Part shown: piece after piece, positions 1,851 through 54,496 of the stretch | Layout: the number at the start of each line of letters is the position of its first letter | Position numbering within the stretch: the first letter of the stretch is position 1 | From: Polyangiaceae bacterium | Lineage (GTDB): Bacteria; Myxococcota_A; Polyangia; Polyangiales; Polyangiaceae | Direction: 5' to 3' | NCBI GenBank assembly: GCA_022842465.1 | Contig: JALHPN010000015.1 | Span: forward strand, 1 to 64,000 | DNA: 64,000 bases | Program-made: the position numbers and the translations under genes | The notes under the pieces: model-generated | Databases searched by the model: none | Told to the model about the DNA's origin: nothing | The model's input: only the letters and a program-made list of their open reading frames with translations

Positions 1851-2804
1851 GTGCCGGCCCTCCCCACGATCGCCATCGCCTGCCAGGGCGGCGGAAGCCA
1901 CGCCGCCTTCACCGCCGGTGTCCTCGAACGCTGGCTCGAGCCGGACGTCGCGCGGCGCCGTGAGCTCGTCGCGTTGAGCGGGACCTCCGGCGGCGCGGTC
2001 TCCGCCGCCCTCGCGTGGGCCGGCCTCGTCGCCCGCGGGCCCGGCGCGGGCCGATCGGAGGCGCGCACGAGGCTCCGCGCATTCTGGGAGGACCTCGCGG
2101 CGGACGACTTCCTCGACGCGGCGATGAACGCCTTCACCGTCTTCGCGTCCCGGATGCCCGGACTCGCGGACTTCACCCCCCAGCCGTTCGTCTCGCCGGC
2201 CGAAGCGGCCCTGCGGGCGCTGCTCGAGCGGCACCTGAGGCTCGACGAGCTCTCACCGGCGGCGCGAGCCGAGGCGCCGGAGCTCCTCGTCGGCGCGACC
2301 GACGTGCTCCGCGGCGAGCGACGGGTGTTCCGGGGTGGAGAGCTCACGCTCGACGAGATCATCGCGTCGGCAGCCGTGCCGCGGCTCTTCCGCGCCGTCC
2401 CCGTGGGAGACTCGGTCTTCTGGGACGGGCTCTTCGCGTGCAACCCGCCCGTGCGGGAGCTCACGGATCTCACGCCCGTGCCGGACGAGATCTGGATCGT
2501 CCGGCTGAACCCTCGACGAAGGGAGAAGCCTCCGGTGCTGCTCTTCGACGTCGTCGACCGCCTGAACGAGCTCTCCGGCAATTTGTCCCTCGACGAAGAG
2601 ATCGCCAGCCTCCTGCGGATGAACAAGCTGCGCGAGCGCCATCCGGAGCTGCGAGAGCGCTACAAGGAGATCCGCGTGCGCGAGGTCGAGCTCGACGAGC
2701 CGCGCCTCGACTACGCGAGCAAGCTGGATCGGAGCCCGGAGCTGCTCGCGCGGCTCAGGGAGCGAGGGCGGGAGAAGGCCGCGGCGCTCCTCGCCACGCT
2801 CTGA
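1851..2804 (+). CDS. Patatin-like phospholipase
   Basis: This 317-residue protein is a patatin-fold serine lipid hydrolase. It has the oxyanion-hole glycine stretch QGGGSH (residues 12-17), the nucleophile elbow GTSGG with Ser46, and the Asp-Gly of the catalytic dyad in WDG (Asp192). It probably releases fatty acids from phospholipids; the substrate is unknown. There is no signal peptide, so it is likely cytosolic or delivered by another route. The reading frame extends upstream, but there it is antisense to the lipoprotein gene, and the conserved domain begins right at GTG 1851 (VPALPTIAIACQGGG). The C-terminal 80 residues are charged and helical. Confidence 0.88.
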   Translation: MPALPTIAIACQGGGSHAAFTAGVLERWLEPDVARRRELVALSGTSGGAVSAALAWAGLVARGPGAGRSEARTRLRAFWEDLAADDFLDAAMNAFTVFASRMPGLADFTPQPFVSPAEAALRALLERHLRLDELSPAARAEAPELLVGATDVLRGERRVFRGGELTLDEIIASAAVPRLFRAVPVGDSVFWDGLFACNPPVRELTDLTPVPDEIWIVRLNPRRREKPPVLLFDVVDRLNELSGNLSLDEEIASLLRMNKLRERHPELRERYKEIRVREVELDEPRLDYASKLDRSPELLARLRERGREKAAALLATL

Positions 2805-2922
2805 TCGCGGACCTTCGCCTTCGAGAGCGTCGGTCGGGGAGGTCGCCCGCCGCGAGGGGGGGTGATCCGCGCCCTCGCCCGGTCGATACGTCGAGCGACG
2901 GGACGAAGCGCCGTCCGAGGGC

Positions 2923-2928
2923 TATCCT
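2923..2928 (+). promoter_or_regulatory. -10-like TATCCT before lipoprotein gene
   Basis: TATCCT ends six bases before the GTG start at 2935 and there is no Shine-Dalgarno. Confidence 0.45.
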
Positions 2929-2934
2929 CACCCT

Positions 2935-3525
2935 GTGGGTCGTTGGTCGACACGCGCGGTCGGGATCGGAGTCGTCGGGCTCCTGGCGGGGTGCGCGGCG
3001 ATCGCGAACCTCAAGGATCCCCTCGCCGTCGACGAGGACGACAACGGCGCGATCGAGAGGACCGACGCGGCGCCCTCGACGTCGACCCAGGATGACCCCC
3101 CGCTCCGCGTCGTCGACGCCGGCAACGGCGACGCGTACGTCGAGCTCCAGGGGGACGGAGCCGTCACCCGCGAGCCCCCGAGAGACGCGGCCGGCGTCGC
3201 GTGCGTCATCGACGGCGGCCTCCGCAACGGCGACACCTGCACCCAGCCGAGTCAGTGCTGCTCCGGCGCGTGCGACGAGAACCGGCAGTGCGACTCCACC
3301 TGCCAGGCCCTCGACAAGAAGTGCGATCCGAACAAGACCGGCGAGTGCTGCATCCGCACCTACTGCAGCCCGGTCCTCCGCACGGCCTTCCCCTTCGAGA
3401 CGTGGTGCACGCGCTGCCGCGACAAGGGCACCTCCGCCGAGACCGCGAAGAACATCTTCAACCAGACCATCATCCTCGCCCATTCCTGCTGCAGCGGCGT
3501 GCAGACGGGCGGCGTCTGCGAGTGA
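2935..3525 (+). CDS. Cys-rich lipoprotein
   Basis: The 196-residue product starts at GTG with signal peptide MGRWSTRAVGIGVVGLLAGC, whose lipobox is LAGC (Cys20). An acidic, low-complexity stretch (about 25-95) leads to a C-terminal domain with many cysteines (GDTCTQPSQCCSGACDENRQC, CCIRTYC, CCSGV), probably disulfide-bonded like knottin or EGF-type modules. Such surface proteins are common in myxobacteria. The function is unknown. Confidence 0.75.
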   Translation: MGRWSTRAVGIGVVGLLAGCAAIANLKDPLAVDEDDNGAIERTDAAPSTSTQDDPPLRVVDAGNGDAYVELQGDGAVTREPPRDAAGVACVIDGGLRNGDTCTQPSQCCSGACDENRQCDSTCQALDKKCDPNKTGECCIRTYCSPVLRTAFPFETWCTRCRDKGTSAETAKNIFNQTIILAHSCCSGVQTGGVCE

Positions 3526-3739
3526 CGGCGACGGCGCGAGGGTGATGCCTCGGAGGCAACACGCCTCTGGGGGCACGAAGGGGGTGGATCCCTCGCCGAG
3601 CATCTCTGGGACCGCCTCGCGTCATCGGCCCGGCGCGCGGCCTCGAGACCGCGGGCACCGCGCGAGGTCCGGATCGTGCGCGCCTCGGCACGAGCGCTGC
3701 AGGCCTGCTCGACATGCTCCCTCGCGTCGCTGGATCGGC
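3526..3739. other. Intergenic region, no clear gene
   Basis: This is 214 bases between two plus-strand genes. It contains the short palindrome GCCTCGGAGGC near its start (about 3546), which could be part of a terminator for the upstream gene. No start codon with ribosome-binding site was found for an additional ORF. Confidence 0.35.
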
Positions 3740-4336
3740 GTGAAGACCTGGGACGTCTACCTCGTGCGAACCGCGTCGTTCCAGGGCATCGCATACGTCG
3801 CCGTGGGCGGCGACGGCCACGTGAAGCACGCCGTGCTCTCTGGCTCGACGTCGTCCGGCGAGGGGGCCCTCTCGCTCGTGAACTACGACGAGGCCGGCAA
3901 GACGGGCGCGACCGAGCGAGACGCCGTCGTCCTCCACGCGCTCGCGACGGACCTCGACGCGGTGAACGCCGCCGCGCAGATCGCGACCCTCCAGCGTCAG
4001 GTCGATGCCGCGCGACGCGCGCTCGATGCGACGAGCAAGCAAGCCGATGCGTACGGCAAGGCCGCCGACGCGTACCGCGAGGCTGCGGGGGCGCATCAGC
4101 GTGCTTCGGAAGCTTTCTCGTGCTCGGCGGACCTCTTCACGCTGAGCGGCGGCATCGTCGCCGCGATGGCCTTGCCCACGGTGGCGCTCATCGTCGGCGC
4201 CCCTCTCGCGGCCGTCGGCGGCGCGATCGCGGTCCTCGTGAGCGCGCTCTCCGTCGCCGGCGTCGGCGTCGTCAGCTTCACGGTCACCGAGATGGTGATG
4301 AGCGCGATCGACAAGACGCGCTGCTTCGCGAGGTGA
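3740..4336 (+). CDS. Coiled-coil/membrane protein, unknown
   Basis: The frame is coding to the stop at 4336, but the start is uncertain. GTG 3740 (VKTWDVYLVRTASF...) gives 198 residues. An N-terminal beta-rich part (residues 1-70) is followed by an Ala-rich coiled coil (about 75-125, ATLQRQVDAARRALDATSKQADAYGKAADAY), then two hydrophobic segments (about 137-160 and 162-185) separated by small residues. The layout resembles a membrane-inserting hairpin after a coiled coil. No family recognised. The lack of a convincing start leaves open that this is the 3' part of a longer, decayed gene. Confidence 0.55.
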   Translation: MKTWDVYLVRTASFQGIAYVAVGGDGHVKHAVLSGSTSSGEGALSLVNYDEAGKTGATERDAVVLHALATDLDAVNAAAQIATLQRQVDAARRALDATSKQADAYGKAADAYREAAGAHQRASEAFSCSADLFTLSGGIVAAMALPTVALIVGAPLAAVGGAIAVLVSALSVAGVGVVSFTVTEMVMSAIDKTRCFAR

Positions 4337-4351
4337 GCGTGCGGCGCTCTC

Positions 4352-5269
4352 TCAGGCGAACGGGTCGATGACCAGCGCGGCGAAGAGCAGCGTCAGGTAG
4401 ACGATCGAGATCCCGAAGAGGGACTTCGCCCACTTGACGCCCGTGCCCTCGCGGAGGCCGTAGCAGCCCCACGTGAAGAACGCGGCGCCGAGGAGCGTGG
4501 CGACGACCAGGTACCCGTGGTGCGCGATGCCGAGCGGAACCACGAGGAGGCTCACCGCGACGCCCGCGAAGATCCACCGCACGATCGCGTGGCGCGAGGC
4601 GAGCTCGCCCACCACGTTCGGCGTGACGACCAGGCCGGCGCGCGCATAGTCGGCCTTCCGGAAGAGCGCGATCGCGATGAAGTGCGGCACCTGCCAGAAG
4701 AAGAGGATCCCGAAGAGGACCATGCCGACGGCGTCGATCCGGTTCGTGCCCGCCGTCCAGCCGAGGAGCGGCGGGATCGCGCCCGGAATCGCGCCGACGT
4801 GGAGGGCGTACTGCGAGTGCTGCTTCAGCGGCGTGTACGCGAGCACGTAGAGGAGGTTCGCGAGGACGGCGAGGAGCGCCGTGAGCGGGTTCGCGCCGAT
4901 CGCGAGGATCGGGACCGACAGGGCGGAGAGGACGACCCCGAACCAGAGCGCCACGCGTGGAGCCATGCGCCCGGCAGGGAGCGGGCGGTTCTTCGTCCGC
5001 GGCATGTGGCGGTCGATGTCCTTCTCGAGGAACATGTTCAGCGCGTTCGCGCCGGCCACCACGAGGGCCGTCCCGAGGAGCGTGCTCCAGATCGTCGCCG
5101 CCGTCAGCGTCACGTCGAGGGACGTGCAGCGCTGGGAGAGGAAGAGGCCTCCCGCCGTCGTGATGACGACCATCAGCGTGATCCGCGGCTTCGCCAGCGC
5201 GACGAGGTCACGAGGCGCGATCGCGGACGCCTTGTCCGTCACGAGGACGTCCAGGAGGGGCTTCTGCAT
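4352..5269 (-). CDS. ctaB: Protoheme IX farnesyltransferase (heme O synthase)
   Basis: This 305-residue polytopic membrane protein of the UbiA prenyltransferase superfamily attaches a farnesyl group to heme b to make heme O for terminal oxidases. The first Asp-rich motif is in NALNMFLEKDIDRHMPRT, followed by the NRPLPAG signature; the second conserved loop is YTPLKQHSQYALHVGAIPGA. About eight or nine hydrophobic helices are visible, and the length is normal for CtaB/CyoE. No oxidase genes are adjacent in the window. An inverted repeat lies 26 bases upstream of the start and could be regulatory. Confidence 0.96.
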   Translation of the reverse strand: MQKPLLDVLVTDKASAIAPRDLVALAKPRITLMVVITTAGGLFLSQRCTSLDVTLTAATIWSTLLGTALVVAGANALNMFLEKDIDRHMPRTKNRPLPAGRMAPRVALWFGVVLSALSVPILAIGANPLTALLAVLANLLYVLAYTPLKQHSQYALHVGAIPGAIPPLLGWTAGTNRIDAVGMVLFGILFFWQVPHFIAIALFRKADYARAGLVVTPNVVGELASRHAIVRWIFAGVAVSLLVVPLGIAHHGYLVVATLLGAAFFTWGCYGLREGTGVKWAKSLFGISIVYLTLLFAALVIDPFA

Positions 5270-5294
5270 GGTGGCCGGGCGTCTCTAGGGGGAC

Positions 5295-5323
5295 GCCCGG
5301 GACGCGTCAAGGAAGTCCCGGGC
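5295..5323. repeat. Inverted repeat upstream of ctaB
   Basis: Perfect 9-base arms GCCCGGGAC (5295-5303) and GTCCCGGGC (5315-5323) flank an 11-base spacer. A second pair, GACGACC (5325-5331) and GGTCGTC (5343-5349), follows directly. Both lie in the 208-base divergent region between ctaB and the giant TPR gene, suggesting operators or leader hairpins. Confidence 0.5.
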
Positions 5324-5444
5324 CGACGACCGCCGATCCGTGGGTCGTCCGTGACACGTCCCCGAGCCGGGCCCCGTTTCGAGGGGTCTCCGCGGCCGCG
5401 GCCCGGCCGTCCCTGTGACCTGTATGCCATCGCGGAAATCCGGG

Positions 5445-5450
5445 TACCCT
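5445..5450 (+). promoter_or_regulatory. -10-like TACCCT before giant TPR gene
   Basis: TACCCT lies 27 bases before the chosen ATG at 5478, so here a short leader would exist. Confidence 0.3.
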
Positions 5451-5477
5451 GATGGCCCGCCCCCCCGATCGCCCATC

Positions 5478-8400
5478 ATGCAGACGCCTCGCCAGTCGCG
5501 GTCCATCCCTCCGCCGTCGTTCGATGCGAAGCTCGAGAACGAAGAAGAGGTGCTCGACGCCCTCCTCGTCGCCCTCTCGAAGAACCAGCTCGATCCGAGC
5601 GTCTGGCAGAACCTCCACGACGCCGCGACGCGGGACGACCGCGTCTCGGAGCTCGCGTTCGCCTACGAGTCGATCGCGCAGGGGCGCAAGCTCAAGACGC
5701 TGCTCCCGCTCGTGCAGGCGGAGCTCTTCTTCCGCGCCGCGACCTTCTTCGGCGACGTGCTCGGGGACGAGTTCGGCGCGACCACGTACCTCGAACGGGC
5801 CCTCGCCGCCCAGCCCGGCCATCCCGGCGCCTTCGACCGCATCGACGCCCAGCTCACCCGCACCGACGACAACAAGAAGCTCGCCGAGCTCTGCGTCCAG
5901 GCCGCGCCGCACCGGCCGCGCCCCGAGCAGGTCGACCTCCTGAAGCGCGCCGCCGTCCTCTTCGAGCGCGCCGGGCTCGAGGACAAGGCGATCGAGACCT
6001 ACCAGCAGCTCGTCCGGCTCGAGCCCGCCGACGAGCAGCTCCGCGAGGCGCTCGAGGCCCGCTACGTGCGCGTGAACCGCTTCCGCGACGTCGCGCGGCT
6101 CCTCGAGCAAGCGCTCGCGCTGGATCCGCCTCCAGGGCGGGACGAGGCCGCTCGCCTCCGGGCCAAGCTCGTCGAGGTCTTCGCGAACCAGCTGAAGGAG
6201 CCCGAGCGGGCGATGCCGCACGTCGAGGCCCTCCTCGACGTGGAGCCGTCCCACGCCGAGGCGCGCCGCGTGGCGATGCGGCTCCTCGAGAGCAAGGGCC
6301 TGGCCGCCCGCGCCGCCGCCGCGCTCTCCGCGGGCGCGCAGTCGACCCAGGAGCGCGCGCACTACCTCGCGATCGAGCTCGAGAACACCCGCGGACCGCG
6401 GCGGCGCGACGTGCTCAAGAAGATCGGCATCCTGAAGCAGGACGAGCTCGGCGACACGCAGGGCGCCTTCGAGGCGTTCGAGCAGGCCATCGCGCTCGAC
6501 CCTTCCGACGACGAGCTCCGCGAGCGTTACGTGGGGCTCGGCTGTTCGCTGAAGGGCCCGCTCGAGGTCGCGCGCACGTTCGCGCGGGTCTCCACCGTCG
6601 CGAAGGACACCGGCGTCCGCTCGCGCATCACGGCCGAGATGGGAGACCTCCTGCTCCGCGGCGGCGACGCGAAGCGCGCGCGTACGACGCTCGCCGGCGT
6701 CCTCGCCGCGACGTCGGCCGACTCCCATGCCGTGCTCGTCGCCGCCCGCGCGCTCGCAGGCGTCTACGAGGCCGAGAACGACGCGAAGAACCTGTCCGAG
6801 GTGCTCGCCAAGGTCGCCGAGAACAGCCCCCTCGAGGGCGAGCGCCAGTACGCGAACGAGCGCATCGCGCAGCTCTGCGAGCAGACGGGCGATCAGGAGC
6901 GCGCGATCGCCGCCTGGCGCCGCCTCGTCGACAGCCCCGCGCGCGCCCGCGCCCTCGCGGCCCTCGAGCCGCTCTACGAGGCGCGCTCGGCCTTCCTCGA
7001 TCTCTCCTTCGTCCTCGAACAGCGCTCGAAGGACGAGCCCGATCGTGACAAGGCCCGCGAGCTCGCGTTCCGCGCGGCCGAGGTGCTCACCACGAAGGCG
7101 AAGGACGTCTCGAGCGCCGCCGAGGCGTGGAAGCACCTCCTCGAGACCTACGGGCCCGCGCGGGACGTGTACGCGCAATACCTCCCGATCCTCGAGGCCG
7201 GGCGCCAGTGGTCCGAGCTCGCCGAGGGCCTCGCGAAGGACGTCGAGCTCGCGCCCGCAGGAGATCGCCCCGCGATCCTCGCGCGCCTCGGCCAGGTGCA
7301 GCTCACCCGGGCGAAGGATCTCCCCGCGGCGATCGAGACCTTCCGCCGCGCGCTCGACGGCGATCCCGAGGAGAAGACGAGCCGCGCGACGCTCGAGAAG
7401 ATGCTCGCCTTCGGGGACGGGCGCGTCGCCGCTGCCGCGGTCCTCGAGCCGATCTACCGGCGCGAGGAGAACGCCCAGGGGCTCCTCCGGGTCCTCGAGA
7501 TCCGCGCGCAGGGCGCGGAGGAGCCGCGGGCGAGGCTCGCCGCCCTCGAGGAGGCGGCCGACGTCGCCGCCGAGGTCTCGCGTGATCGCGCGGTCGACAT
7601 CGTCGCGCGTGGGCTCGGCGAGGCGATCTCCGCGGGCGAGCCGATCGCGACGTGGCTCGAGCGCTTCGATCGCGTCGCCGACGGCGTCGACCGTAAGAAG
7701 CGCGCGCAGCTCCTCGCGACCGCGCTCGGTGAGCGAGACGTCGACTCGCCCGAGCTCGCAGCCCTCGCGAAGCGGGTCGGCGAGGAGAACGCCGCCTGCG
7801 GCGACGTCGCCGCGGCCCTCGCCGCGTATCGCCGCGCGCTCGCGTACGAGCCGTCGTCGAACGAGCTCGTCCAGCGCGTCGACGAGCTCTTGCGCGAGCA
7901 GGGCAACCCCGAGGAGCGCGTCGCGCTCTATCGCTCGTCGCTCGAGCAGTCCCCTCCCCCGCCCCGTCGTCGCCAGCTCCTCCACTCGATCGGCTCCATC
8001 GAGCGCTACGAGCTCGTGAACCTCGAGGCCGCGATCCTCGCCTACAAGACCGCGCTCCACGACGACCCGACCGACCTCGAGGCGCACAACGCGCTCGCCG
8101 AGCTGTACGGAGAGACCTCGAGCTGGGACGCGCTCGGCGATCTGCTCGAGGAGCACATCCCCTTCTGCACGTCTCCGGACGACGTGCGGCGGACGCGCGC
8201 GCAGCTCGCCGAGGTCGCCGCCGCGCACGGTCAGGGGACGCGCGCGGCGCTCCAGGCGGGCGCGCTGCTCGCCGATCCACAGCTCCCCGTCTCCGATCTC
8301 GACGTCGTCGAGCGCGTCGCGATCGCGCTCACGGACATGGAGCTCCTCCGGCGCACGCTCGAGCGGCGTGCCCGGGAGTCGAGCGAGCCCCGCGTCCAGG

Positions 8401-43334: not shown

Positions 43335-44828
43335 ATGGCCACGAAGACCGCGCCGTCGAAGAAGAGGCCCGAGTGGGTCGGGTGGGCTGCGCTCGGAACC
43401 CTCGTCGCGGGTCTTGCCGGGCTCGTGCTGTGGTCGCTCCCCCACGGAGAAGGGGACGCGAACGCCGGATCCGTGCGCGACGCGAGCGACGAGATCGAGC
43501 CATGGCACGACGAGGCGCTCATCAACGGGAGCGCCGGGCCCGCCGCCACGAGCGCACGTACGGAGCTCGAGCGACCGGCGGAGGCGTCCGCCGACATCGC
43601 GCTCGTCGTCGAAGACAAGGCCGACCTCCCCGAGCGCACGACCCGAGACGCCATCGTACGCCTCCTCGACGCGAGATACTGCGGCTCCGCGTGCGATGCC
43701 GTTCGCCGCGCCGTCCTCGACGAGAGGACGTTCGACCTCGATCGGATGACGACGGAGGAGCTCGGGCTCCCCTCGAAGGAGACCTGGGACACCGTCGCCG
43801 CCACGCTCACGACCGAGGAGCGCGCGAGCCTCGACAAGCGGCCCGTCGCCCTCTTCGTCCGCACGCGAGGGCCGGGCGCCCCGGATCACGTGCCGGCGCG
43901 GACGGCGTTCGCCGTGACCGCAGCGCTCGCCGAGTCGCTCGGGGCCCTCGTCTACGACGAGACGCTGCGGAGGATCGAGGCGCCGCGCGACGTCGTCCGG
44001 CGCGTCATCACCGCGCCGCTCGGACAGCCCGTCTTCACCCAGCGACACGTCGTCGTGCAGCTCTACCGGCAGGACGACGCGACGGCGCGCCTCCTCACCC
44101 TCGGCATGGCGCGCTTCGGGGCGCCGGACCTCGCGCTCCGCGGCGCGCCGATGGCGGATGCGCCGGACCTCGCGCTCGTGCTGAACGCGGCGGCCGCGCA
44201 GGTCGCCCACGGAGCGAGCAAGCTCCCGCTCCGGGTGACCCTCGACGACGTCGCGCGCGTGACCGGGGGCGCGCCGCGCGAGCTGTCGCCAGAGCCCGCG
44301 CGCGCCGAGGCCGTGGCGCTCGACGCGATCGAGCCGCCACGCACCGAAGGCGACCCCGACAACGAGATGGCCGAGCTCGTGCCGCCGGGGGGCATCGCGA
44401 ACGGGACCTGGGGCGCCGTCCTGACGTCGCTCTTCCATCGCGCGCCGTCGGTCGCGTTCGCGGCGATGGACGGCGAGCTCGGCGCCGTCGCGACGAAGGC
44501 CCGCGCCTCGTTGCCTGCCGCGCTGAAGCGCTCGGAATCGGGCGCCGCGACGCTCTTCGTGAAGGCTCCCTTCCCGACGAAGGCGGACGCGGGGAGCGAG
44601 TGGCTCTGGATCGAGGTGCAGCGCTGCGACGCGAAGAGCTGCACGGGACCGCTCACCAACACGCCGACGTACGCGACGTCGTTCGTCGAGGGGAGGCCCG
44701 CGAAGGTGTCGCGCGCGGAGATCGCCGACGTCCTCCTCCGCCTCCCCGACGGCGGGACGGAGGGCGGCGACTCGATCCGCATCCTCGAGGCGCGGGCGCT
44801 CGGCAGGGGGCCCGCGGACCGTCAGTAG
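43335..44828 (+). CDS. Membrane-anchored protein, unknown
   Basis: ATG 43335 (MATKTAPSKKRPEWVGWAALG) gives 497 residues; a GTG at 43317 is also in frame. One N-terminal helix (about 15-34) anchors a large soluble part outside the membrane. That part is acidic and mixed alpha/beta, with no enzymatic motif found. RGAPMADAPDLALVLNAAAAQVAHGASKLPLRVTLDDV lies in the middle and may be a conserved core. It overlaps the convergent protease gene by seven bases. Confidence 0.72.
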   Translation: MATKTAPSKKRPEWVGWAALGTLVAGLAGLVLWSLPHGEGDANAGSVRDASDEIEPWHDEALINGSAGPAATSARTELERPAEASADIALVVEDKADLPERTTRDAIVRLLDARYCGSACDAVRRAVLDERTFDLDRMTTEELGLPSKETWDTVAATLTTEERASLDKRPVALFVRTRGPGAPDHVPARTAFAVTAALAESLGALVYDETLRRIEAPRDVVRRVITAPLGQPVFTQRHVVVQLYRQDDATARLLTLGMARFGAPDLALRGAPMADAPDLALVLNAAAAQVAHGASKLPLRVTLDDVARVTGGAPRELSPEPARAEAVALDAIEPPRTEGDPDNEMAELVPPGGIANGTWGAVLTSLFHRAPSVAFAAMDGELGAVATKARASLPAALKRSESGAATLFVKAPFPTKADAGSEWLWIEVQRCDAKSCTGPLTNTPTYATSFVEGRPAKVSRAEIADVLLRLPDGGTEGGDSIRILEARALGRGPADRQ

Positions 44829-46057
44829 CCGGGCGGGAGCACCACGTTCGACAGAGGCGTGTGGCTCATCGTGCAGTTCGACGTGTCCGTCTCGCCGTCC
44901 GGCAACGTCGAGCAGCGCTTGATCGGCCCGTCGAGGTAGTCGAGGTAGAGGTCGTGGTAGCCGGGCATCCCGGGCGCGAAGGCGCGGTCGGGACGGGCAT
45001 TGCCCCAGGAGTTCTTCACCCGCAAAAACTCGATCTTCGTGTCGCGATCGAGCGCGCGCGAGAGGAGCTGCGCATCGAGGGGGTCTTCCTTGTCGAGCGT
45101 GACGCCCGCCGCGAGCACCGTGCCGTCGCTCAGCTTCGCCTGGTAGTCCTGGAGGACGGTCATGTGTCCGCCCTGACGACCGGGGCCGTTCTCGCCGAGC
45201 GTCGTCATGTTGAAGGAGCCGCGGCGCTCGTTCTCGCCGTTCTCCATCGCGTTGAAGTCGACGAACCACGTGATGATGACGGGCAGCTCGTCGTGCATCG
45301 CGCGCTGCACGCGCTGGAGGAACGCGCGGCGGTCCCCCCAGTAGCTGACCTGACGCCACTCGCGCATCGCGGCCTCGAGCGTCCGCGTCGCGCGAGGTTG
45401 GCCCGGCGACGAGGCGTACGAGACCTGGAAGTCTTTCGCACGGACGATGTTCGTGTTCGTCGCGTCGGCGGAGCCCGCGAACGTGCGCGTCACCGTCGGG
45501 CCGAACACCCGGTCGATCCGCTGGCTCACCTCGGCCGAGAGGCCCCAGGCGCGGTCCATCTCCTGCCGCACGAGCGACCTGTCTCGGCGCGCCTGGGTCG
45601 TGGAGAGCAGGCCGCTCTCGAGCGACGCATTGAGCGCGTCGAGCGCGACCTTCTGGCGGTTCGACATCTCGCCCTCGCCGTCGACGGCGAGGAAGTCCAC
45701 GTCCCTGACGAGGCCGTACTTCCGGATGATGTTATTTGCCGTCGCGTAGTTGCCCCCCGTCGAGATCTTGGTCGACCCGCCCGAGGCGATCTGATCGAAC
45801 CAGTGCCAGTAGGTCCAGTAGGACTCGGAGCTGTCGAACGCCTCGCCCGTCGCGCTGAGGTGCATCGACTCGATCCAGCTCGCGTGCGCGTAGAGCCAGC
45901 AGTTTCCGATCGACTGCCGCTCTACCTCGGTCTGTGGGACCGCGACGATGTCGTTCTCGTCGGCGATCGTGGCGGGTTCTGCGTGCTCCGTCGCGCACCC
46001 GAGCGCGGGCACGACGAGCGAGAGCAGGACGGAGAGGCCGAGGGAGCGGAGCTTCAT
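44822..46057 (-). CDS. Secreted papain-like cysteine peptidase (C1B-like lipoprotein)
   Basis: The 411-residue protein has a lipobox (ALGC, Cys21) and then a papain-fold catalytic domain. The nucleophile is Cys53 in SIGNCWLYA, the His is 298 in GGHMTVLQDY, and the Asn is 349 in RVKNSWG. The order and spacing fit bleomycin-hydrolase/aminopeptidase C enzymes rather than cathepsins; the oxyanion Gln is not in the usual place directly before GNCW (RQSIGNCW does have Gln four residues upstream). Those enzymes are usually cytosolic, so an envelope-anchored one is unusual. The natural substrate is unknown. Confidence 0.85.
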   Translation of the reverse strand: MKLRSLGLSVLLSLVVPALGCATEHAEPATIADENDIVAVPQTEVERQSIGNCWLYAHASWIESMHLSATGEAFDSSESYWTYWHWFDQIASGGSTKISTGGNYATANNIIRKYGLVRDVDFLAVDGEGEMSNRQKVALDALNASLESGLLSTTQARRDRSLVRQEMDRAWGLSAEVSQRIDRVFGPTVTRTFAGSADATNTNIVRAKDFQVSYASSPGQPRATRTLEAAMREWRQVSYWGDRRAFLQRVQRAMHDELPVIITWFVDFNAMENGENERRGSFNMTTLGENGPGRQGGHMTVLQDYQAKLSDGTVLAAGVTLDKEDPLDAQLLSRALDRDTKIEFLRVKNSWGNARPDRAFAPGMPGYHDLYLDYLDGPIKRCSTLPDGETDTSNCTMSHTPLSNVVLPPGY

Positions 46058-47143: not shown

Positions 47144-49636
47144 GTGACGGACGGACAGCGGAGGACGAACCCACCCCGGCCGAGCGTTTCCCTGGGCGTG
47201 AAGGGAGACCAGCCTGCCGCGAAGGCCCCGATCGCGCGCCGGCTCCGCACCTGGGGGCTCCGCGCCTTCGTGGCCGCGCTCCTCCTCGCCGTGGCCGGCG
47301 TGACGGCGGGCCTCGTCCTCGTGCGCCACTACGAGAAGGGGCTCCCGAGCGTCGCCGAGCTCGAGCGTGGCTATCACCCCTCCCAGGTGACGCGCGTCCT
47401 CGCCCGCGACGGGACGCTCCTGGCCGAGCTCTTCACGGAGCGACGGACGATCGTCAAGATCGACGACCTGCCCGCGCACGTGAAGCTCGCGGTCCTCGCG
47501 GCGGAGGACGCGAACTTCTACAACCACGAGGGCATCAACTACTTCGGCATCGCGCGCGCGTTCGTCGTGAACCTGCGCGCGGGTCGCACGCGGCAGGGCG
47601 GCTCGACGATCACCCAGCAGGTCGTGAAGAACATCCTGCTCGATACGACCGAGCGCACCTACGGCCGGAAGATGCGCGAGGCCCTCCTCGCGCGGCGGCT
47701 CGAGCAGGAGATCTGCCAGAGCTGCGAGGCGAAGGGCCGCAAGGACAAGATCCTCGAGCTCTACCTGAACCACATCTACTTCGGGCACGGGCGCTACGGG
47801 ATCGAGGAGGCGGCCAAGGACAACTTCGGGAAGCCGGCGCGCGAGCTGACGATCGCCGAGGCGGCGATGCTCGCCGGGGTGCCCGCCGGGCCGGAGATCT
47901 TCAACCCGAAGCGAGACCTGAAGAAGGCGCTCACGCGACGCGCGTTCGTGCTCGAGCAGATGCACGCGAAGGGCTTCTTGAACGACGCGCAGTACGACGC
48001 GGCGAAGGACGAGCCCGTCCGCCTCGCGCCGAACCTGGAGATCGAGAGCGAGCTCGCGGCGGAAGCGGTGAAGATCGCGCGCAAGACGCTCCTCGAGCTC
48101 GAGCCGGAGCGCGGTCCGCGCGGCGGGTTCACCGTCCACACGACGATCGATCCACGCCTGCAGGCCGCGGCGCGGAAGGCCCTCCGCGACAACCTCCACG
48201 CCTACGACGGACGGCACGCGCTCCTCGCTCCCTTCAAGGCGCCCGCCTCCGCGTCGAAGAGCGGGAAGAAGCCGCCGTCCAAGGACCCGCCGCCCTTCGA
48301 GGGGACGCCCGTCTTCAAGGCGCAGGAGGTCCTCACGGGCGTCGTCGTGTCCACGGACGACGTCGCCGGAACCGTCGACGTGCGGGTCGGGAGCGCGGTC
48401 GGCTCGATCAAGGTGGCCGACTACAAGCGCTACAACCCGAAGAGCCTGCCCCCGAGCCAGTTCGCCGAGGTCGGGGCCCGCCTGCGCGTGAGCCTGCTCG
48501 CGCCTCTGCCGAACGTCGACAAGGACGCGCGTTCGGTCGCGAAGGTGCCGCTGCGGCTCGAGCTCGGCCCCGAGTCGGCCATCGCTCTCCTGGACGTGAG
48601 GACACGTCAGGTCCTGGCGCTCGCGGGCAGCTACGAGGCGGTCGCCGGAGGGCTCGACCGGGCGACGCAGTCGAAGCGGCAGCCGGGATCGACCTTCAAG
48701 CCCATCGTCTACTCGTATGCGCTCCACTCGCGCCGGTACACCCCCGCCACCCTCGTCGACGTGACGGCGACGACCTTCACCGGCGGCTACAAGCCGTCGA
48801 ACTACGAGGGCTGGACGGCGACCGATCCCCTCCGCCTCCGTGAAGTGCTCGCGAAATCGGTGAACATCGGCGCCGTCCGCGTGCTCGAGGACGTCGGGGC
48901 CGCGAACGTGGCGGCCTGGGGCAAGGCGCTCGGGATCGAGTCGAACCTCGGCGCGACGCCGTCGCTCGCGCTCGGCGCCTACGAGGTCAAGCCGCTCGAG
49001 CTCGTGTCCGCCTATGCGACCTTCGCGGCGGGCGGGATGTGGGAGGAGCCTCGGATCGTGACGCGCATCGTCGACCCGGACGGGAGGGACGTGACCCTCC
49101 GGGATCCGCTGCCGTCGCGTCGCGTGCTGGAGCCCGCCGAGGCGTACCTCACGACGAGCATGCTCACGAGCGTCGTCGACCACGGGACGGCGACCGGGGC
49201 GAAGGTGCTCGGCCGACCCGTTGCCGGCAAGACAGGGACGACGAACGACGACAAGCACGGCACCAAGGACACGTGGTTCGCCGGGTACTCGACCGAGATC
49301 GCCGCGGTGGTGTGGGTCGGGTACGACGACAACAAGCCGCTCGGGACGGGCGAGTCCGGCGGGCAGACCGCCCTCCCTGCGTGGGTCACGCTCATGAAGG
49401 CCGCCCACGAGAACAAGCCGCGAGCCGAGTTCCCGAAGCCGGGCGGCATCGTCACCGTCGCGATCGATCCGAAGACCGGCAAGAAGGCGAAGGACGGCGA
49501 CGCGGAGGCGATCGACGAGGTCTTCCTCGAAGGGACGGAGCCTCTGGAGGTCGCAGAGGACGTCCCCGACGCAGGCCCCATGCTCGGCGCCGGTCTCGCC
49601 CCCGAGAGCGCCGAGGACGCAGGCGTCCTCCCCTGA
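47144..49636 (+). CDS. Penicillin-binding protein 1A
   Basis: The 830-residue bifunctional class A PBP polymerises and crosslinks peptidoglycan. After one membrane helix (about 40-62), the GT51 glycosyltransferase domain has catalytic Glu121 in EDANFYNHEG, then RQGGSTITQQVVKN and the KILELYLNHIYFG motif. The transpeptidase domain has Ser516 in PGSTFKP, SVN, and KTGTT. An insert of about 90 residues before the transpeptidase (KSGKKPPSKDPPP) forms an extra domain. Length is typical. Confidence 0.96.
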   Translation: MTDGQRRTNPPRPSVSLGVKGDQPAAKAPIARRLRTWGLRAFVAALLLAVAGVTAGLVLVRHYEKGLPSVAELERGYHPSQVTRVLARDGTLLAELFTERRTIVKIDDLPAHVKLAVLAAEDANFYNHEGINYFGIARAFVVNLRAGRTRQGGSTITQQVVKNILLDTTERTYGRKMREALLARRLEQEICQSCEAKGRKDKILELYLNHIYFGHGRYGIEEAAKDNFGKPARELTIAEAAMLAGVPAGPEIFNPKRDLKKALTRRAFVLEQMHAKGFLNDAQYDAAKDEPVRLAPNLEIESELAAEAVKIARKTLLELEPERGPRGGFTVHTTIDPRLQAAARKALRDNLHAYDGRHALLAPFKAPASASKSGKKPPSKDPPPFEGTPVFKAQEVLTGVVVSTDDVAGTVDVRVGSAVGSIKVADYKRYNPKSLPPSQFAEVGARLRVSLLAPLPNVDKDARSVAKVPLRLELGPESAIALLDVRTRQVLALAGSYEAVAGGLDRATQSKRQPGSTFKPIVYSYALHSRRYTPATLVDVTATTFTGGYKPSNYEGWTATDPLRLREVLAKSVNIGAVRVLEDVGAANVAAWGKALGIESNLGATPSLALGAYEVKPLELVSAYATFAAGGMWEEPRIVTRIVDPDGRDVTLRDPLPSRRVLEPAEAYLTTSMLTSVVDHGTATGAKVLGRPVAGKTGTTNDDKHGTKDTWFAGYSTEIAAVVWVGYDDNKPLGTGESGGQTALPAWVTLMKAAHENKPRAEFPKPGGIVTVAIDPKTGKKAKDGDAEAIDEVFLEGTEPLEVAEDVPDAGPMLGAGLAPESAEDAGVLP

Positions 49637-51444: not shown

Positions 51445-52773
51445 ATGCGGCTCTCCCGTCGCGCATGGCTCGCAGGGGCGACGACGCTGACCCTCGGGTC
51501 GCGCGTCGTCGCCAAGCCCCGCGTCGCAGTGGGAGGTCGCATCGGGTTCCGTCTCCCGTGGCCGCTCGGGTCGGTCGACCCTCACCGCCTCGACGACGGC
51601 CTCGCCGCCGTCCTCGGCGACGCGCTCTTCGACACGCTCTACGCCCGCGACGAGTCCGGCGCGTTCGCGCCGAGCCTCGCCGAGAGCGACCCGGAACCGG
51701 AGGGCGCGGGGCTCCGCGTCAAGCTCCGCGCCGGCGTGCGAACGTCGCGCGCGAGACCCTTCGAGGCGCGGGATGCGCGTGACGCGATCGCGCGAGCGCG
51801 CACCCTCGGCGCGAAGGGCTGGCTCGCCGACGTGCCGGCGCCGAGGGTCGACGGCCGCTCGCTCGTGTTCCCGACGAAGGATGCGTCGCGCCTCGTCCGT
51901 GCGCTCGCGTCTCCTCTCGTCGCGATGGTGCCGTCCGGCTTCTCGCCGGAGAGCCCTGAAGGGACCGGTCCCTTCCGGTGGACCGCGAGGGACGGTGGCG
52001 CCGTCCTCTCGCGGAACCCGCTCGCCGCGCGCGGCCCTGCCTTCCTCGACGAGGTCCTCGTCCAGAGCGCGCCCGATCTCTCGGCCTCGCTCCGTGCGTT
52101 CGAGACCGGCATCGACGATCTCGGCTGGCTCGGCAGCGGAATGGTCCAGCCGCGGGCGGGCTCGCGGCCGTTCGATCTCGGGCCCGTCGCCTGGGCCGTC
52201 CTCTCGACCGGCCGCGACGCCGGCTCCTGGGACGCGCCCGGCGTCGCGCAGCGCCTGTGCGACGGGATCCCGCCGTCGAAGCTCGTGCCGTTCGCGCTCG
52301 GACCTGCGTGGACGGTCGACGCGCAGCAGACGTGGAGCGGCGCGCAGGCGCAGCTCCTCGTGCGCGAGGACGCGGTGTGGCTCGTCGAGCTCGCGCGTGC
52401 GGTCGCCGCCTCTCTCTCGCGTCCGGGGAGCGAGGTCACGGCGAAGCCGGTCCCTCCGTCCGAGCTCGCCGCGCGACGTGCGAGCCGCACCTTCGCGTTC
52501 GCGCTCGACGTCGTCCGGCCCCTCGATCGTTCGGGCCTCGGGACCCTCGTGGGCCTTGCGAGCGCGGACGGAGGCGGACGCGCGACGGACATCGTCTTGC
52601 ACCCGCCGAAGCTCGGCGACGTCTCGCCGCGCACGCTCACCCGCACGCTGCGGGTCGGCGTCGTGGGCGAGATCCGCGTCAAGGGCGGCTCCATCGCGGA
52701 TCTCTCGCTGCCCGCCTCGCACGCCGCGCTCGGCCTCGATCTCGGCGGCGCGACCCGGGCGCGGGCGCGCTGA
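51445..52773 (+). CDS. Tat-exported solute-binding protein (family 5-like)
   Basis: ATG 51445 gives 442 residues starting MRLSRRAWLAGATTLTLGSRVVA, a twin-arginine signal peptide. Then comes a periplasmic binding domain like peptide-binding SBP_bac_5 proteins: FRLPWPLGSVDPHRLDDGLAAVLGDALFDTLYARDESGAFAPSLAES, GTGPFRW and a two-lobe layout. No permease or ATPase genes are nearby. The twin-arginine route suggests it folds in the cytoplasm or carries a cofactor, uncommon for this family. Confidence 0.8.
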   Translation: MRLSRRAWLAGATTLTLGSRVVAKPRVAVGGRIGFRLPWPLGSVDPHRLDDGLAAVLGDALFDTLYARDESGAFAPSLAESDPEPEGAGLRVKLRAGVRTSRARPFEARDARDAIARARTLGAKGWLADVPAPRVDGRSLVFPTKDASRLVRALASPLVAMVPSGFSPESPEGTGPFRWTARDGGAVLSRNPLAARGPAFLDEVLVQSAPDLSASLRAFETGIDDLGWLGSGMVQPRAGSRPFDLGPVAWAVLSTGRDAGSWDAPGVAQRLCDGIPPSKLVPFALGPAWTVDAQQTWSGAQAQLLVREDAVWLVELARAVAASLSRPGSEVTAKPVPPSELAARRASRTFAFALDVVRPLDRSGLGTLVGLASADGGGRATDIVLHPPKLGDVSPRTLTRTLRVGVVGEIRVKGGSIADLSLPASHAALGLDLGGATRARAR

Positions 52774-52817
52774 TCGCGGAGCGCGACACCTCATCTCTGC
52801 CGCGGTGTGGGAGAGGC
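52774..52817. other. Short convergent gap
   Basis: The 44 bases between the Tat-exported binding protein and the peptide-locus gene contain no T-rich terminator. Confidence 0.35.
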
Positions 52818-53606
52818 TCAACCGTCTTCGATGCGGCCGCGCTTCCGCGTCGCGGTCGCGTAGCGACCGGGGCGCATCATCGGGTCCTTGCCCCGCTCGA
52901 CGAACACGCGGCGATAGGCGTCCCAGTCCTCCGTGCGCAGCCCCGCGAGGTCGTCCTCGATCTGCATCTCGCGGAGGTTCTGCTCCTCGAACGTCGCCCG
53001 CTCGATCGGCTGGACCTGGAGGTACGGGTGCGTACGGCGGAACGCGATAGGGCGGTTGGTGGTGGTGACGCGCAGGTTCGTGAAGACGGAGTAAAACCAT
53101 CGGTCGGAGTCGATGATCCCTTCGAAGAGCTCATAGTGCTGACTGCGCGCCAGGTTCGCAGGCGGCCTGATGAGGACGCTCCACCCCGGCCGAGTCCGCA
53201 CGAGCCATCCGGACCAGACCTGGAGCACGCCCGGCTGCAACGTGGCCGTGAGGAACGGCGGGGCGAACCCCTTGACGTCATCGGGCGCGATCGCGTCGAA
53301 GCGCTCGGGCAACCCTGGCAAGTGCTCGCTCCTCACCGGGTGCCAGTTGGCGCCGTCGTCGTGCGACCAGACGAAGTCCGTTCCGTCGTAGAGGACGTGG
53401 AAGTCGATGGGTGGAAAGACGTAGTAGCCGAACGCGGAGGCCGCGCACACTGGTTCGCAGTATCGAAGCGCGGAAGCCGGAAGGGTCCCGAGCGCCGCGC
53501 GGTCCGCGCGCATCGGGGCCAGCGCATCCGGCGCGAGGCGCACGAAGCGGACGAGCGGGGCACTCGCCCCGACGGGTGCCCCCTTGCCTCGAGCGTCCGT
53601 CGTCAT
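52818..53606 (-). CDS. Uncharacterised protein of repeat-peptide locus (DUF6065-like)
   Basis: The 262-residue soluble protein begins 19 bases after the repeat-peptide gene and is surely in the same operon. It has two Cys near the N-terminus (RYCEPVC, about 49-53), a beta-rich middle (FGYYVFPPIDFHVLYDGTDFVWSHD), and a second half with QVWSGWLVRTRPGWSVLIRPPANL, FEGIIDSDRWFYSVFTNLRVTTTNRPIAF and HPYLQVQPI. This pattern resembles what I remember of DUF6065; I am not certain. It has no signal, radical-SAM CxxxCxxC, kinase or ATP-grasp motif. By position it could modify, bind or transport the peptide. Confidence 0.8.
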   Translation of the reverse strand: MTTDARGKGAPVGASAPLVRFVRLAPDALAPMRADRAALGTLPASALRYCEPVCAASAFGYYVFPPIDFHVLYDGTDFVWSHDDGANWHPVRSEHLPGLPERFDAIAPDDVKGFAPPFLTATLQPGVLQVWSGWLVRTRPGWSVLIRPPANLARSQHYELFEGIIDSDRWFYSVFTNLRVTTTNRPIAFRRTHPYLQVQPIERATFEEQNLREMQIEDDLAGLRTEDWDAYRRVFVERGKDPMMRPGRYATATRKRGRIEDG

Positions 53607-53625
53607 GGCGATGCCCCGCTGTCCC

Positions 53626-53847
53626 TCAGCGCCGACCGAGCTTCACGAACGGCGGGATAGAGTTGTCGCCCATCTCGGTCTTCGGCTTCGGCGCCGCCGA
53701 GAGCTTCACGAACGGCGGGATACAGTTGTCGCCCATCTCGGTCTTCGGCTTCGGCGCCGCCGAGAGCTTCACGAACGGCGGGATAGAGTTGTCGCCCATC
53801 TCGGTCTTCGGCTTCGGCGCCGCCGAGAGCTTCACGTTCAGCTTCAT
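53626..53847 (-). CDS. Three-repeat precursor-like peptide
   Basis: ATG 53847 gives 73 residues: MKLN, three copies of a 21-residue unit (53835-53773, 53772-53710, 53709-53647), and a tail VKLGRR. Each unit starts VKLSAAPKPK and ends GDNSIPPF. The copies differ by one base, 53723, which changes Ser17 to Cys in the middle unit. An AGGGAG Shine-Dalgarno sits nine bases upstream. There is no signal peptide and no long leader. This frame is favoured over the other two repeat-reading frames: the other minus frame has poor GC at third positions, and the plus frame has no start codon. It resembles multicore RiPP precursors. Function unknown. Confidence 0.8.
   Translation of the reverse strand: MKLNVKLSAAPKPKTEMGDNSIPPFVKLSAAPKPKTEMGDNCIPPFVKLSAAPKPKTEMGDNSIPPFVKLGRR
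53638..53835. repeat. 63-base tandem repeat, three full copies
   Basis: The period is exactly 63 bases (starts at 53638, 53701 and 53764 on the plus strand), followed by a partial fourth start at 53827. Copies one and three are identical; copy two differs at 53723 (G to C on the plus strand). Confidence 0.9.
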
Positions 53848-53898
53848 GTTCACATTCTCCCTGCGGCACTCCGTGCAGGAACAGGGGCCGCCACCCCC

Positions 53899-53927
53899 GT
53901 GATGCGGGCGCACCGCACGACGGTCAA
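53899..53927 (-). promoter_or_regulatory. Candidate promoter of repeat-peptide operon
   Basis: On the minus strand TTGACC (53927-53922) is followed after 17 bases by CATCAC (53904-53899). The -35 is good and the -10 weak. It would give a leader of about 45 bases with the Shine-Dalgarno at its end. Confidence 0.35.
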
Positions 53928-53974
53928 CGTGCTTCGAGTCCGCAGATCGGGTCACCGGTACGCGCGCTCGGTGG

Positions 53975-54496
53975 CTACGGGCGACGCAGGTGACGCGACC
54001 CCGGCGTGGGCTGGCTCGACGTGTCGGACCACGGTCGCCACGCGGTGACATGCGAGGGAGAGCTTCCGAACCTCTCGTGCGAGGAGGACCTGGACGGGTG
54101 CGGGGCAGCTCGCCGGCTGGGAGACCGCAACGGGGCCCACGCCTTCGCCAGAAGGACGTGACAGGCGCGCGCCGTCCCGTCGACCTCCTTCCCAAACCGC
54201 GTGACGCCGCTCGTCGGCTGCGTCCCCTCCGTCGTCGTCTTGACCCCACCGCTCGACGATCCAGGGCCGGCCTGGCTGGATGAAGGAGAGGCCCCCTCCT
54301 GCCCAGAGCAGGCGAGGAGAGTGAAGAGAGCCACGAGTGCCGCGCCGAGACCGACCGTGATGCGCGTGAGAGAACGTCCGAGTCCTCGGCCTCTAGGGCG
54401 TGTCCGTCCTTCTCGACCCCTGCTCGCGCCGTGTCGTGAGTTGGACGTAGAGCGTGCTGCCGAACGTACGGCGGACCTCGCGGCGTCCGATGGCAC
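53975..54496 (-). CDS. Doubtful lipoprotein, possibly decayed
   Basis: The frame from ATG 54496 to 53975 has a convincing lipoprotein signal in its middle (ITVGLGAALVALFTLLAC, then SGQEGASPSSS). However, 46 residues precede it with no closer start codon, and the last 70 residues are Ser/Arg/Pro-rich without features. The true gene may begin at an unusual start or be broken. It is the only gene-like object between the peptide operon and 54.5 kb. Confidence 0.35.
   Translation of the reverse strand: MPSDAARSAVRSAARSTSNSRHGASRGREGRTRPRGRGLGRSLTRITVGLGAALVALFTLLACSGQEGASPSSSQAGPGSSSGGVKTTTEGTQPTSGVTRFGKEVDGTARACHVLLAKAWAPLRSPSRRAAPHPSRSSSHERFGSSPSHVTAWRPWSDTSSQPTPGSRHLRRP

Follow-up and report, generated by a model that had tools for sequence, protein, structure and literature searches.

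We report that two adjacent genes on the minus strand of the window (the whole 64,000-nt stretch of Polyangiaceae contig JALHPN010000015.1 that was analysed) encode a short peptide built of tandem repeats and, downstream of it, a protein of the DUF6065 family (PF19541). We read the pair as a repeat-core cassette resembling those of ribosomally synthesised and post-translationally modified peptides (RiPPs), in which DUF6065 would be the maturase or a maturation partner, and we give this reading a probability of roughly 0.58. It draws on the recurrence of a repeat peptide just upstream of DUF6065 relatives, on the division of each repeat unit into a constant and a locus-specific half, and on RiPP enzymes found beside two relatives. 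The pair had been described before in a first-pass annotation, where the strand was not given. Its features, all on the minus strand, are as follows.

52818..53606, minus strand: gene for the DUF6065 protein, 262 aa, PF19541, with a predicted dUTPase-like (beta-clip) fold.
53607..53625, minus strand: intergenic gap of 19 nt, with GGGG 7 nt 5' of the DUF6065 ATG; same-strand, operon-like arrangement.
53626..53847, minus strand: gene for the 73-aa repeat peptide, from the ATG at 53847 to the stop at 53628-53626, G+C content (GC) at third codon positions 0.93.
53647..53709, minus strand: unit 3, same as unit 1 (Tandem Repeats Finder and sequence reading).
53710..53772, minus strand: unit 2, the Cys variant ...GDNCIPPF (Tandem Repeats Finder and sequence reading).
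53773..53835, minus strand: unit 1, VKLSAAPKPKTEMGDNSIPPF (Tandem Repeats Finder and sequence reading).
53857..53862, minus strand: AGGGAG, Shine-Dalgarno-like, 9 nt 5' of the peptide ATG, read from the sequence.

The peptide consists of MKLN, three copies of VKLSAAPKPKTEMGDN[S/C/S]IPPF and a closing VKLGRR. Its units are 21 aa long and a single base distinguishes them, giving Ser, Cys and Ser in turn. Tandem Repeats Finder placed the array at 53638-53836 (period 63, 3.2 copies, 98% match) with a score of 391, and the runner-up among the 16 rows for the window scored 93; a chance repeat was ruled out by this score together with the recurrence at other loci. The open reading frames (ORFs) and the repeat search thus agree with the first-pass annotation on a 73-residue peptide, three 21-residue units, one differing base and a neighbour 19 bases on, and the AGGGAG element is in line with the Shine-Dalgarno that it had assigned to the peptide. 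The candidate promoter that it also proposed was not recovered, as a sigma-70 consensus scan of 52600-54400 returned no site and no terminator, against expected counts of 0.1 and 0.6, a result which weighs little because the genome has a GC of 71.6%. Since GC by codon position in the peptide gene (0.53/0.46/0.93) resembles that in the DUF6065 gene (0.67/0.51/0.88), the peptide frame reads as coding. No N-terminal leader was seen in the window peptide; the conserved half of each unit could serve as the recognition sequence. Neither protein had an NCBIfam match at E<=1. The Cys codon of unit 2 (53722-53724) lies in the variable half of the unit (DNSIPPF versus DNCIPPF), and the array at locus L044 (5358-5888, plus strand) shows the same kind of exchange, with Cys confined to part of its units and again placed in their variable half (GGNAPSL/GGCAPSL).

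The resemblance to DUF6065 proposed in the first-pass annotation is correct: the downstream protein scored 56.3 bits with PF19541, above the gathering cut-off of 26.6 (E 4e-15), though over residues 119-241 only, aligned to positions 78-200 of the 236-position profile. In an order-wide search, the window protein and its paralogue in the same genome were only partial matches (47 and 45 bits), whereas 11 other members of the family in the order scored 292-323 bits across nearly the whole profile; the window protein therefore lacks the full-length match typical of canonical members. Residues strongly conserved in an alignment of 40 sequences are C50, an ASAFG[WY]YV loop, R147, N151, G163 and E166-T-D168.

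Relatives of the window protein were collected in two sets. The first comprises 40 sequences at 36-51% identity, mostly from Alphaproteobacteria, obtained from a scan of one genome per species. The second was assembled from 29 loci and 77 further stretches, less nine duplicates, to give 97 unique loci; it includes 29 of the 30 best-scoring loci (L125-L153), and the 77 others were hand-picked among the matches listed. The clade is common: in the order of a Roseomonas relative, which we take to be Acetobacterales, 107 of 395 genomes encode one at E<=1e-20, and many encode at least two. Repeat units were sought with a motif model of 15 positions built from 14 loci, each of which was left out when scored, and in the first set a unit was counted if it lay on the strand of the DUF6065 gene and no more than 1.2 kb upstream of it; the model used for the second set was derived from the first.

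A repeat unit was found just upstream of DUF6065 in 121 of the 137 relatives, 91 times by the motif model and 30 times by eye, and of the remainder 13 were without a unit and 3 were cut by contig ends. The first set contributes 32 of 40 (27 by the model; five arrays too diverged for it, L055, L068, L071, L076 and L077, read by eye) and the second 89 of 97 (64 by the model, 13 diverged arrays and 12 single units by eye), with 3 second-set loci cut by contig ends and 5 lacking a unit. The 12 single units each lie in a short ORF, mostly near the C-terminus, and single-unit precursors occur for example at L184, L191 and L218. In a control search, which covered 387,502 bases and both strands, the model produced only 6 weak hits outside these upstream regions, the best at 14.4 bits, and 13 control loci with canonical or distant DUF6065 proteins gave two hits (13.7 and 9.2 bits), each more than 5 kb from the DUF6065 gene. 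A Rhizobium plasmid offers an annotated example, where WP_170279615.1, a hypothetical protein with three units around DGxVHIANKSP, ends 16 nt before the DUF6065 protein WP_260059330.1.

Within the genome of the window itself, contig C36 carries a DUF6065 paralogue, 61% identical, and ahead of it a 67-aa peptide whose two units, ...TPKPKTAMGDGGMDLPF... and ...VKPKTEMGDGGGWAPV..., are diverged. The segment KPKT[E/A]MGD is kept between the two peptides and the sequence after it differs. Thus, the proposal of the first-pass annotation that repeat peptides with varying copy number should be looked for beside homologues was borne out at the 121 loci and at this paralogue. The literal VKLSAAPKPK unit was not seen elsewhere, but a looser unit, D-x-G-[KR]-V-[R]-phi-G followed by a variable segment, does recur. 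Homologues without an adjacent repeat peptide, which it had named as speaking against the idea, exist as a minority (13 of 137), in addition to the 13 control loci without a unit beside the gene.

The way in which the units vary is informative. In loci with modelled units, the spacing is 17 residues in 153 of 290 cases, followed by 19, 25 and 20; overall the period is varied, mostly 17-27 aa, and arrays reach 17 units, with 8 in that of L051. Pooled over 66 loci, the proportion of synonymous differences within arrays (pS) is 0.322 and that of non-synonymous differences (pN) is 0.055, giving a pN/pS of 0.17, with pS above pN at 63 of the 66 loci and the reverse at 1. The repeats of the relatives are therefore kept as protein, under purifying selection. 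Among 62 distinct locus consensus units Gly 8 is invariant (a position that the model favours) and Asp 1, Val 5 and Arg 6 are nearly so, whereas position 10, two residues after Gly 8, differs in 87% of distinct consensus pairs and in 8% of within-locus pairs. A recognition segment with its core would show just such a division into a constant and a locus-specific half, and the window unit has a matching layout, KPKTEMGD | NS/CIPPF.

Further types of unit were noticed at three loci outside the 137. L247 (6843-7034, minus strand) has a VRLGDGLSPW-like unit three times, L248 (4249-4428, plus strand) has units of the VRVGHVDSP/VALGDARP type, and L256 (3352-4152, plus strand) repeats RMGSGELPPRVAKHVKATQ many times; by eye, this last locus also has a transporter and a regulator resembling BTAD proteins.

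Two members of the clade adjoin RiPP enzymes. At L072 the DUF6065 gene starts 13 nt after a full-length LanB dehydratase (PF04738 3.2e-151, PF14028 1.1e-53; TIGR03891). At L075 the surroundings comprise a precursor with a Nif11 leader (PF07862, 25.0 bits versus a cut-off of 23.8; TIGR03798 28.4 bits, below its cut-off of 32.3), a RiPP radical S-adenosylmethionine (SAM) C-methyltransferase (TIGR03975, 673 versus 282 bits), a PoyD-type epimerase (TIGR04517, 503 versus 325 bits) and, on the opposite strand and overlapping the start of the DUF6065 ORF, an AspH-type hydroxylase (PF05118). The two proteins group with a Shimodaira-Hasegawa-like approximate likelihood ratio support of 98, both on long branches, in a quick, midpoint-rooted tree built without a canonical outgroup. 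These neighbours tie DUF6065 to peptide maturation at two loci of 137, and a RiPP-type role gains support from them. The earlier suggestion of a RiPP precursor with its partner is thereby backed in part; in the window, a Pfam scan of 10 flanking proteins detected no RiPP enzyme family and no ATP-grasp, and the DUF6065 partner itself matched no RiPP family in Pfam or NCBIfam.

A second recurrent neighbour is a BTAD-domain, TPR-rich transcription activator, found near 64 of the 137 loci: upstream and divergent at 39, downstream and convergent at 22, and upstream on the same strand at 3. It was not detected at the 13 control loci, in the window or in the stretch around the paralogue. The queries were six proteins from these same loci, which match by construction. 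Flanks ranged from about 0.1 to 6 kb per locus and were often only 2 kb, and since their lengths differ between loci the count of 64 is a lower bound.

In order to find a fold for DUF6065, an AlphaFold2 model was built from the 40-sequence alignment (mean predicted local distance difference test score, pLDDT, 86.4; predicted template-modelling score, pTM, 0.76). A Foldseek search against the PDB gave 96 matches at E<=0.001, and all 50 among the matches listed were dUTPases; the best had an E of 4.4e-5 and a probability of 1.00, and template-modelling scores were 0.57-0.79 by target (TMt) and 0.35-0.39 by query (TMq). Against BFVD, viral dUTPases ranked below mostly uncharacterised or unnamed proteins. 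A sequence search for a solved structure returned none at E<=10. DUF6065 is thus predicted to have a dUTPase-like (beta-clip) fold. By reading, counterparts are present for motif 2-4 positions only, and the motif 1 Asp and the motif 5 tail were not seen, so the full set of conserved dUTPase motifs 1-5 is not found in the protein. Modelling confidence was lower in the region around C50, which might be a mobile active-site lid.

We propose the following mechanism. The small gene would encode a leaderless precursor whose repeats each consist of a constant recognition segment (KPKTEMGD in the window, D-x-G-K-V-R-L-G in Alphaproteobacteria) linked to a variable segment that is specific to the locus, NS/CIPPF in the window. 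DUF6065, as a putative dUTPase-fold protein that would have retained a motif-3-like acidic loop and lost other dUTPase signatures, would bind the recognition segment and act on the adjoining segment of each unit. It would work unit by unit, like other multi-core enzymes, and copy number would fix the yield of product per precursor. The BTAD/TPR activator may control the cassette in about half of the proteobacterial loci. That the window pair belongs to the alphaproteobacterial system is something we infer.

A number of observations weigh against this reading. The likeness of the window unit to the alphaproteobacterial units was equalled by 29-37 of 500 shuffles and is only suggestive; therefore the place of the window in the system rests mainly on gene order and DUF6065 homology. 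The window unit, that of the paralogue and the clear L079 array all escape the motif model, and the 30 assignments by eye are a matter of judgement. A generic repeat score reached 30.5-85 in the 13 control upstream regions (top L113; at least 49 in four). Nine of the 13 second-set arrays read by eye exceed that range, and those of L170, L175, L195 and L210 (35.5-79) fall inside it; because control scores reach 85, these four arrays and the 12 single units depend on the reading of the motif. No unit is visible at L040, L043, L057, L061, L063, L064, L072, L075, L128, L135, L137, L216 and L220. The two loci with RiPP enzymes are thus both without the repeat, no precursor was identified beside L072, and none of the four enzymes of the two loci that were searched for by tblastn recurred at any of the other 135 loci, as far as the available flanks extend. 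No protease or exporter was broadly recurrent among the clustered neighbours. The fold, too, lacks a counterpart in sequence, as a profile comparison with 16 dUTPases of related genomes was not significant (probability 0.19%, E 0.32), and to our knowledge no dUTPase-fold peptide enzyme has been described. Finally, when the L067 pair of Bradyrhizobium jicamae SZCCT0349 was read through the stop as one chain, AlphaFold2 predicted strand pairs in each 20-aa unit (pLDDT 76-81, linker below 50).

This last model could point to a multivalent binding or structural protein, with the repeats arranged as a small beta-solenoid or scaffold and DUF6065 serving as a stoichiometric binding partner or chaperone that performs no chemistry; the repeats are, moreover, homogenised within loci. 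We regard this explanation as unlikely. Beta-solenoids are reportedly predicted too often by AlphaFold2 when the repeats are perfect (PMC11795689). The period is varied and half of the unit is hypervariable, and a solenoid is disfavoured because single-unit peptides occur, which cannot stack. Those short precursors would suit a peptide-signal system, where the repeats would supply a pheromone or intracellular ligand in multiple copies, the BTAD/TPR protein would act as its receptor-regulator, and DUF6065 would process or present the peptide. The regulator near the 64 loci, 39 times divergent, and a variable half that differs between loci, as specificity segments do, agree with it, and TPR receptors for peptides are the RRNPP paradigm (PMC10075063). 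However, the regulator was not detected in the window, beside the paralogue or at 73 of the 137 loci (where flanks were often short), and no secretion signal was seen by eye in the repeat peptides. BTAD proteins regulate ordinary biosynthesis clusters too, and such a signalling role is, in our estimation, improbable.

Less probable still is that DUF6065 is a nucleotide enzyme, similar to dUTPase or dCTP deaminase, and that the linked peptide serves regulation, for instance as an inhibitor or a tethering peptide. The Foldseek match to dUTPases speaks for it, as does the alignment of the VRPPANL...GIIETDRWF region with the dUTPase VRPRSGL...GTIDEDYRG region, where the GIIETDRWF loop faces motif 3 (GTIDEDYRG), an alignment that comes from the same non-significant profile comparison. 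The missing motif 1 Asp and motif 5 tail argue against it, as do the DUF6065 members beside RiPP enzymes (L072 and L075) and the PF00692 dUTPase match over the cut-off in 19 of 19 related genomes, that of the window host included.

Contamination was considered as the source of the window pair and is countered by the flanking sequence. A transglycosylase/transpeptidase gene of the window (47144-49633) has counterparts at 70-76% identity in 11 of 11 other genomes of the same genus (in one, G121, split over two contigs), and the window GC of 71.6% lies among those of stretches of nine other contigs (70.8-73.4%). On these grounds the contig is most likely part of this genome. The pair, with a GC of 67.8%, was probably acquired, since a search of 377 genomes of the phylum gave no match above 42 bits outside its own genome. 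Elsewhere in the window, a lipoprotein-like ORF (44822-46057, minus strand) shows papain-type features by eye (GNCWLYA, KNSWG) and had no Pfam match at 1e-3.

Other neighbours of DUF6065 genes are of narrower distribution. EamA transporters are found in the neighbourhood of a few first-set loci (one cluster accounts for 4; L054 by Pfam). A TldD metalloprotease adjoins L049 (also L051 and L053) and others, 11 loci in all that form one synteny group, and the linkage is taken as lineage synteny because identity to L049 is 74-93%. A PmbA/TldD-family protease also lies near the member at L073 (7511-8854, minus strand); TldD/PmbA proteins process some RiPPs. At L076 a LodA-type lysine oxidase (LodA_N, LodA_C; 2061-5408, minus strand) stands upstream of the repeat peptide, with a LodB-like flavoprotein by eye. 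L113 has a weakly DUF6065-like ORF beside a graspetide-type precursor with TTLAxGEED repeats by eye (5324-5611 and 4283-5293, minus strand; 6900-8048, plus strand), and its ATP-grasp matches GRASP_SAV_5884 below the cut-off. In a second, diverged DUF6065-like branch, from an order that is presumably Hyphomicrobiales, 6 of the 8 loci examined (L249, L250, L252, L253, L255 and L257, not L251 and L254) have, at most about 4.4 kb away, an ORF with (NSSS)n tandem repeats whose start resembles a signal peptide by eye.

The literature was searched in its open-access part, with preprints outside the scope. It held no mention of DUF6065 or PF19541, nothing that pairs 'dUTPase fold' with RiPP, and no match to the unit letters KVRLGG, DAGKVR, KVRLGA or KTEMGD; on RiPPs, repeats and BTAD more broadly, nothing on point was found among the matches listed. 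If the cassette reading is right, this is a widespread system without a description in that literature, with a new fold for peptide maturation and a leaderless repeat-core logic, which should be easy to engineer because copy number and core vary and the recognition half is constant. DUF6065 thereby gains a functional hypothesis that is cheap to test, as two short genes are involved. More tentatively, and with the odds rather against it, DUF6065 may be the founding member of a new superfamily of enzymes that modify (or cleave) peptides and use the dUTPase fold. Each would read tandem units of recognition segment and hypervariable core, and the substrates would be of three kinds or more: repeat peptides of the KVRLG type, precursors of Nif11/LanB clusters and secreted (NSSS)n proteins.

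Of the known systems, clusters with a Nif11/NHLP leader, a PoyD epimerase and a radical SAM C-methyltransferase, a class which we take to be the proteusins, come near through L075, a member of the same DUF6065 clade that sits in one; the window pair differs in having a repeat peptide and no RiPP enzyme among its scanned neighbours. Trimeric dUTPases (PF00692) share with DUF6065 the predicted fold and the acidic motif-3-like loop, but DUF6065 has extra parts and no significant sequence match to them, and the motif 1 Asp and motif 5 were not seen in it. RRNPP-type peptide/TPR-receptor pairs likewise place a small peptide gene near a TPR regulator, as at 64 of the 137 loci; here, however, the hosts are Gram-negative, the regulator is of the BTAD-TPR kind, and there are a third gene (DUF6065) and repeats. 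The graspetide (microviridin) system AMdnA/AMdnC resembles the pair in having several cores per precursor, and AMdnC, which modifies AMdnA and accepts one to four cores, provides a precedent for multi-core processing by one enzyme, a different one there (PMC5934393). That system uses an ATP-grasp ligase and a leader, whereas here the partner has a predicted dUTPase fold, no leader was seen and no ATP-grasp ligase was found among the 10 scanned window proteins. The pair thus fits none of the class definitions tested and, among known kinds, would work most like a multi-core RiPP, with an unexpected fold in its partner.
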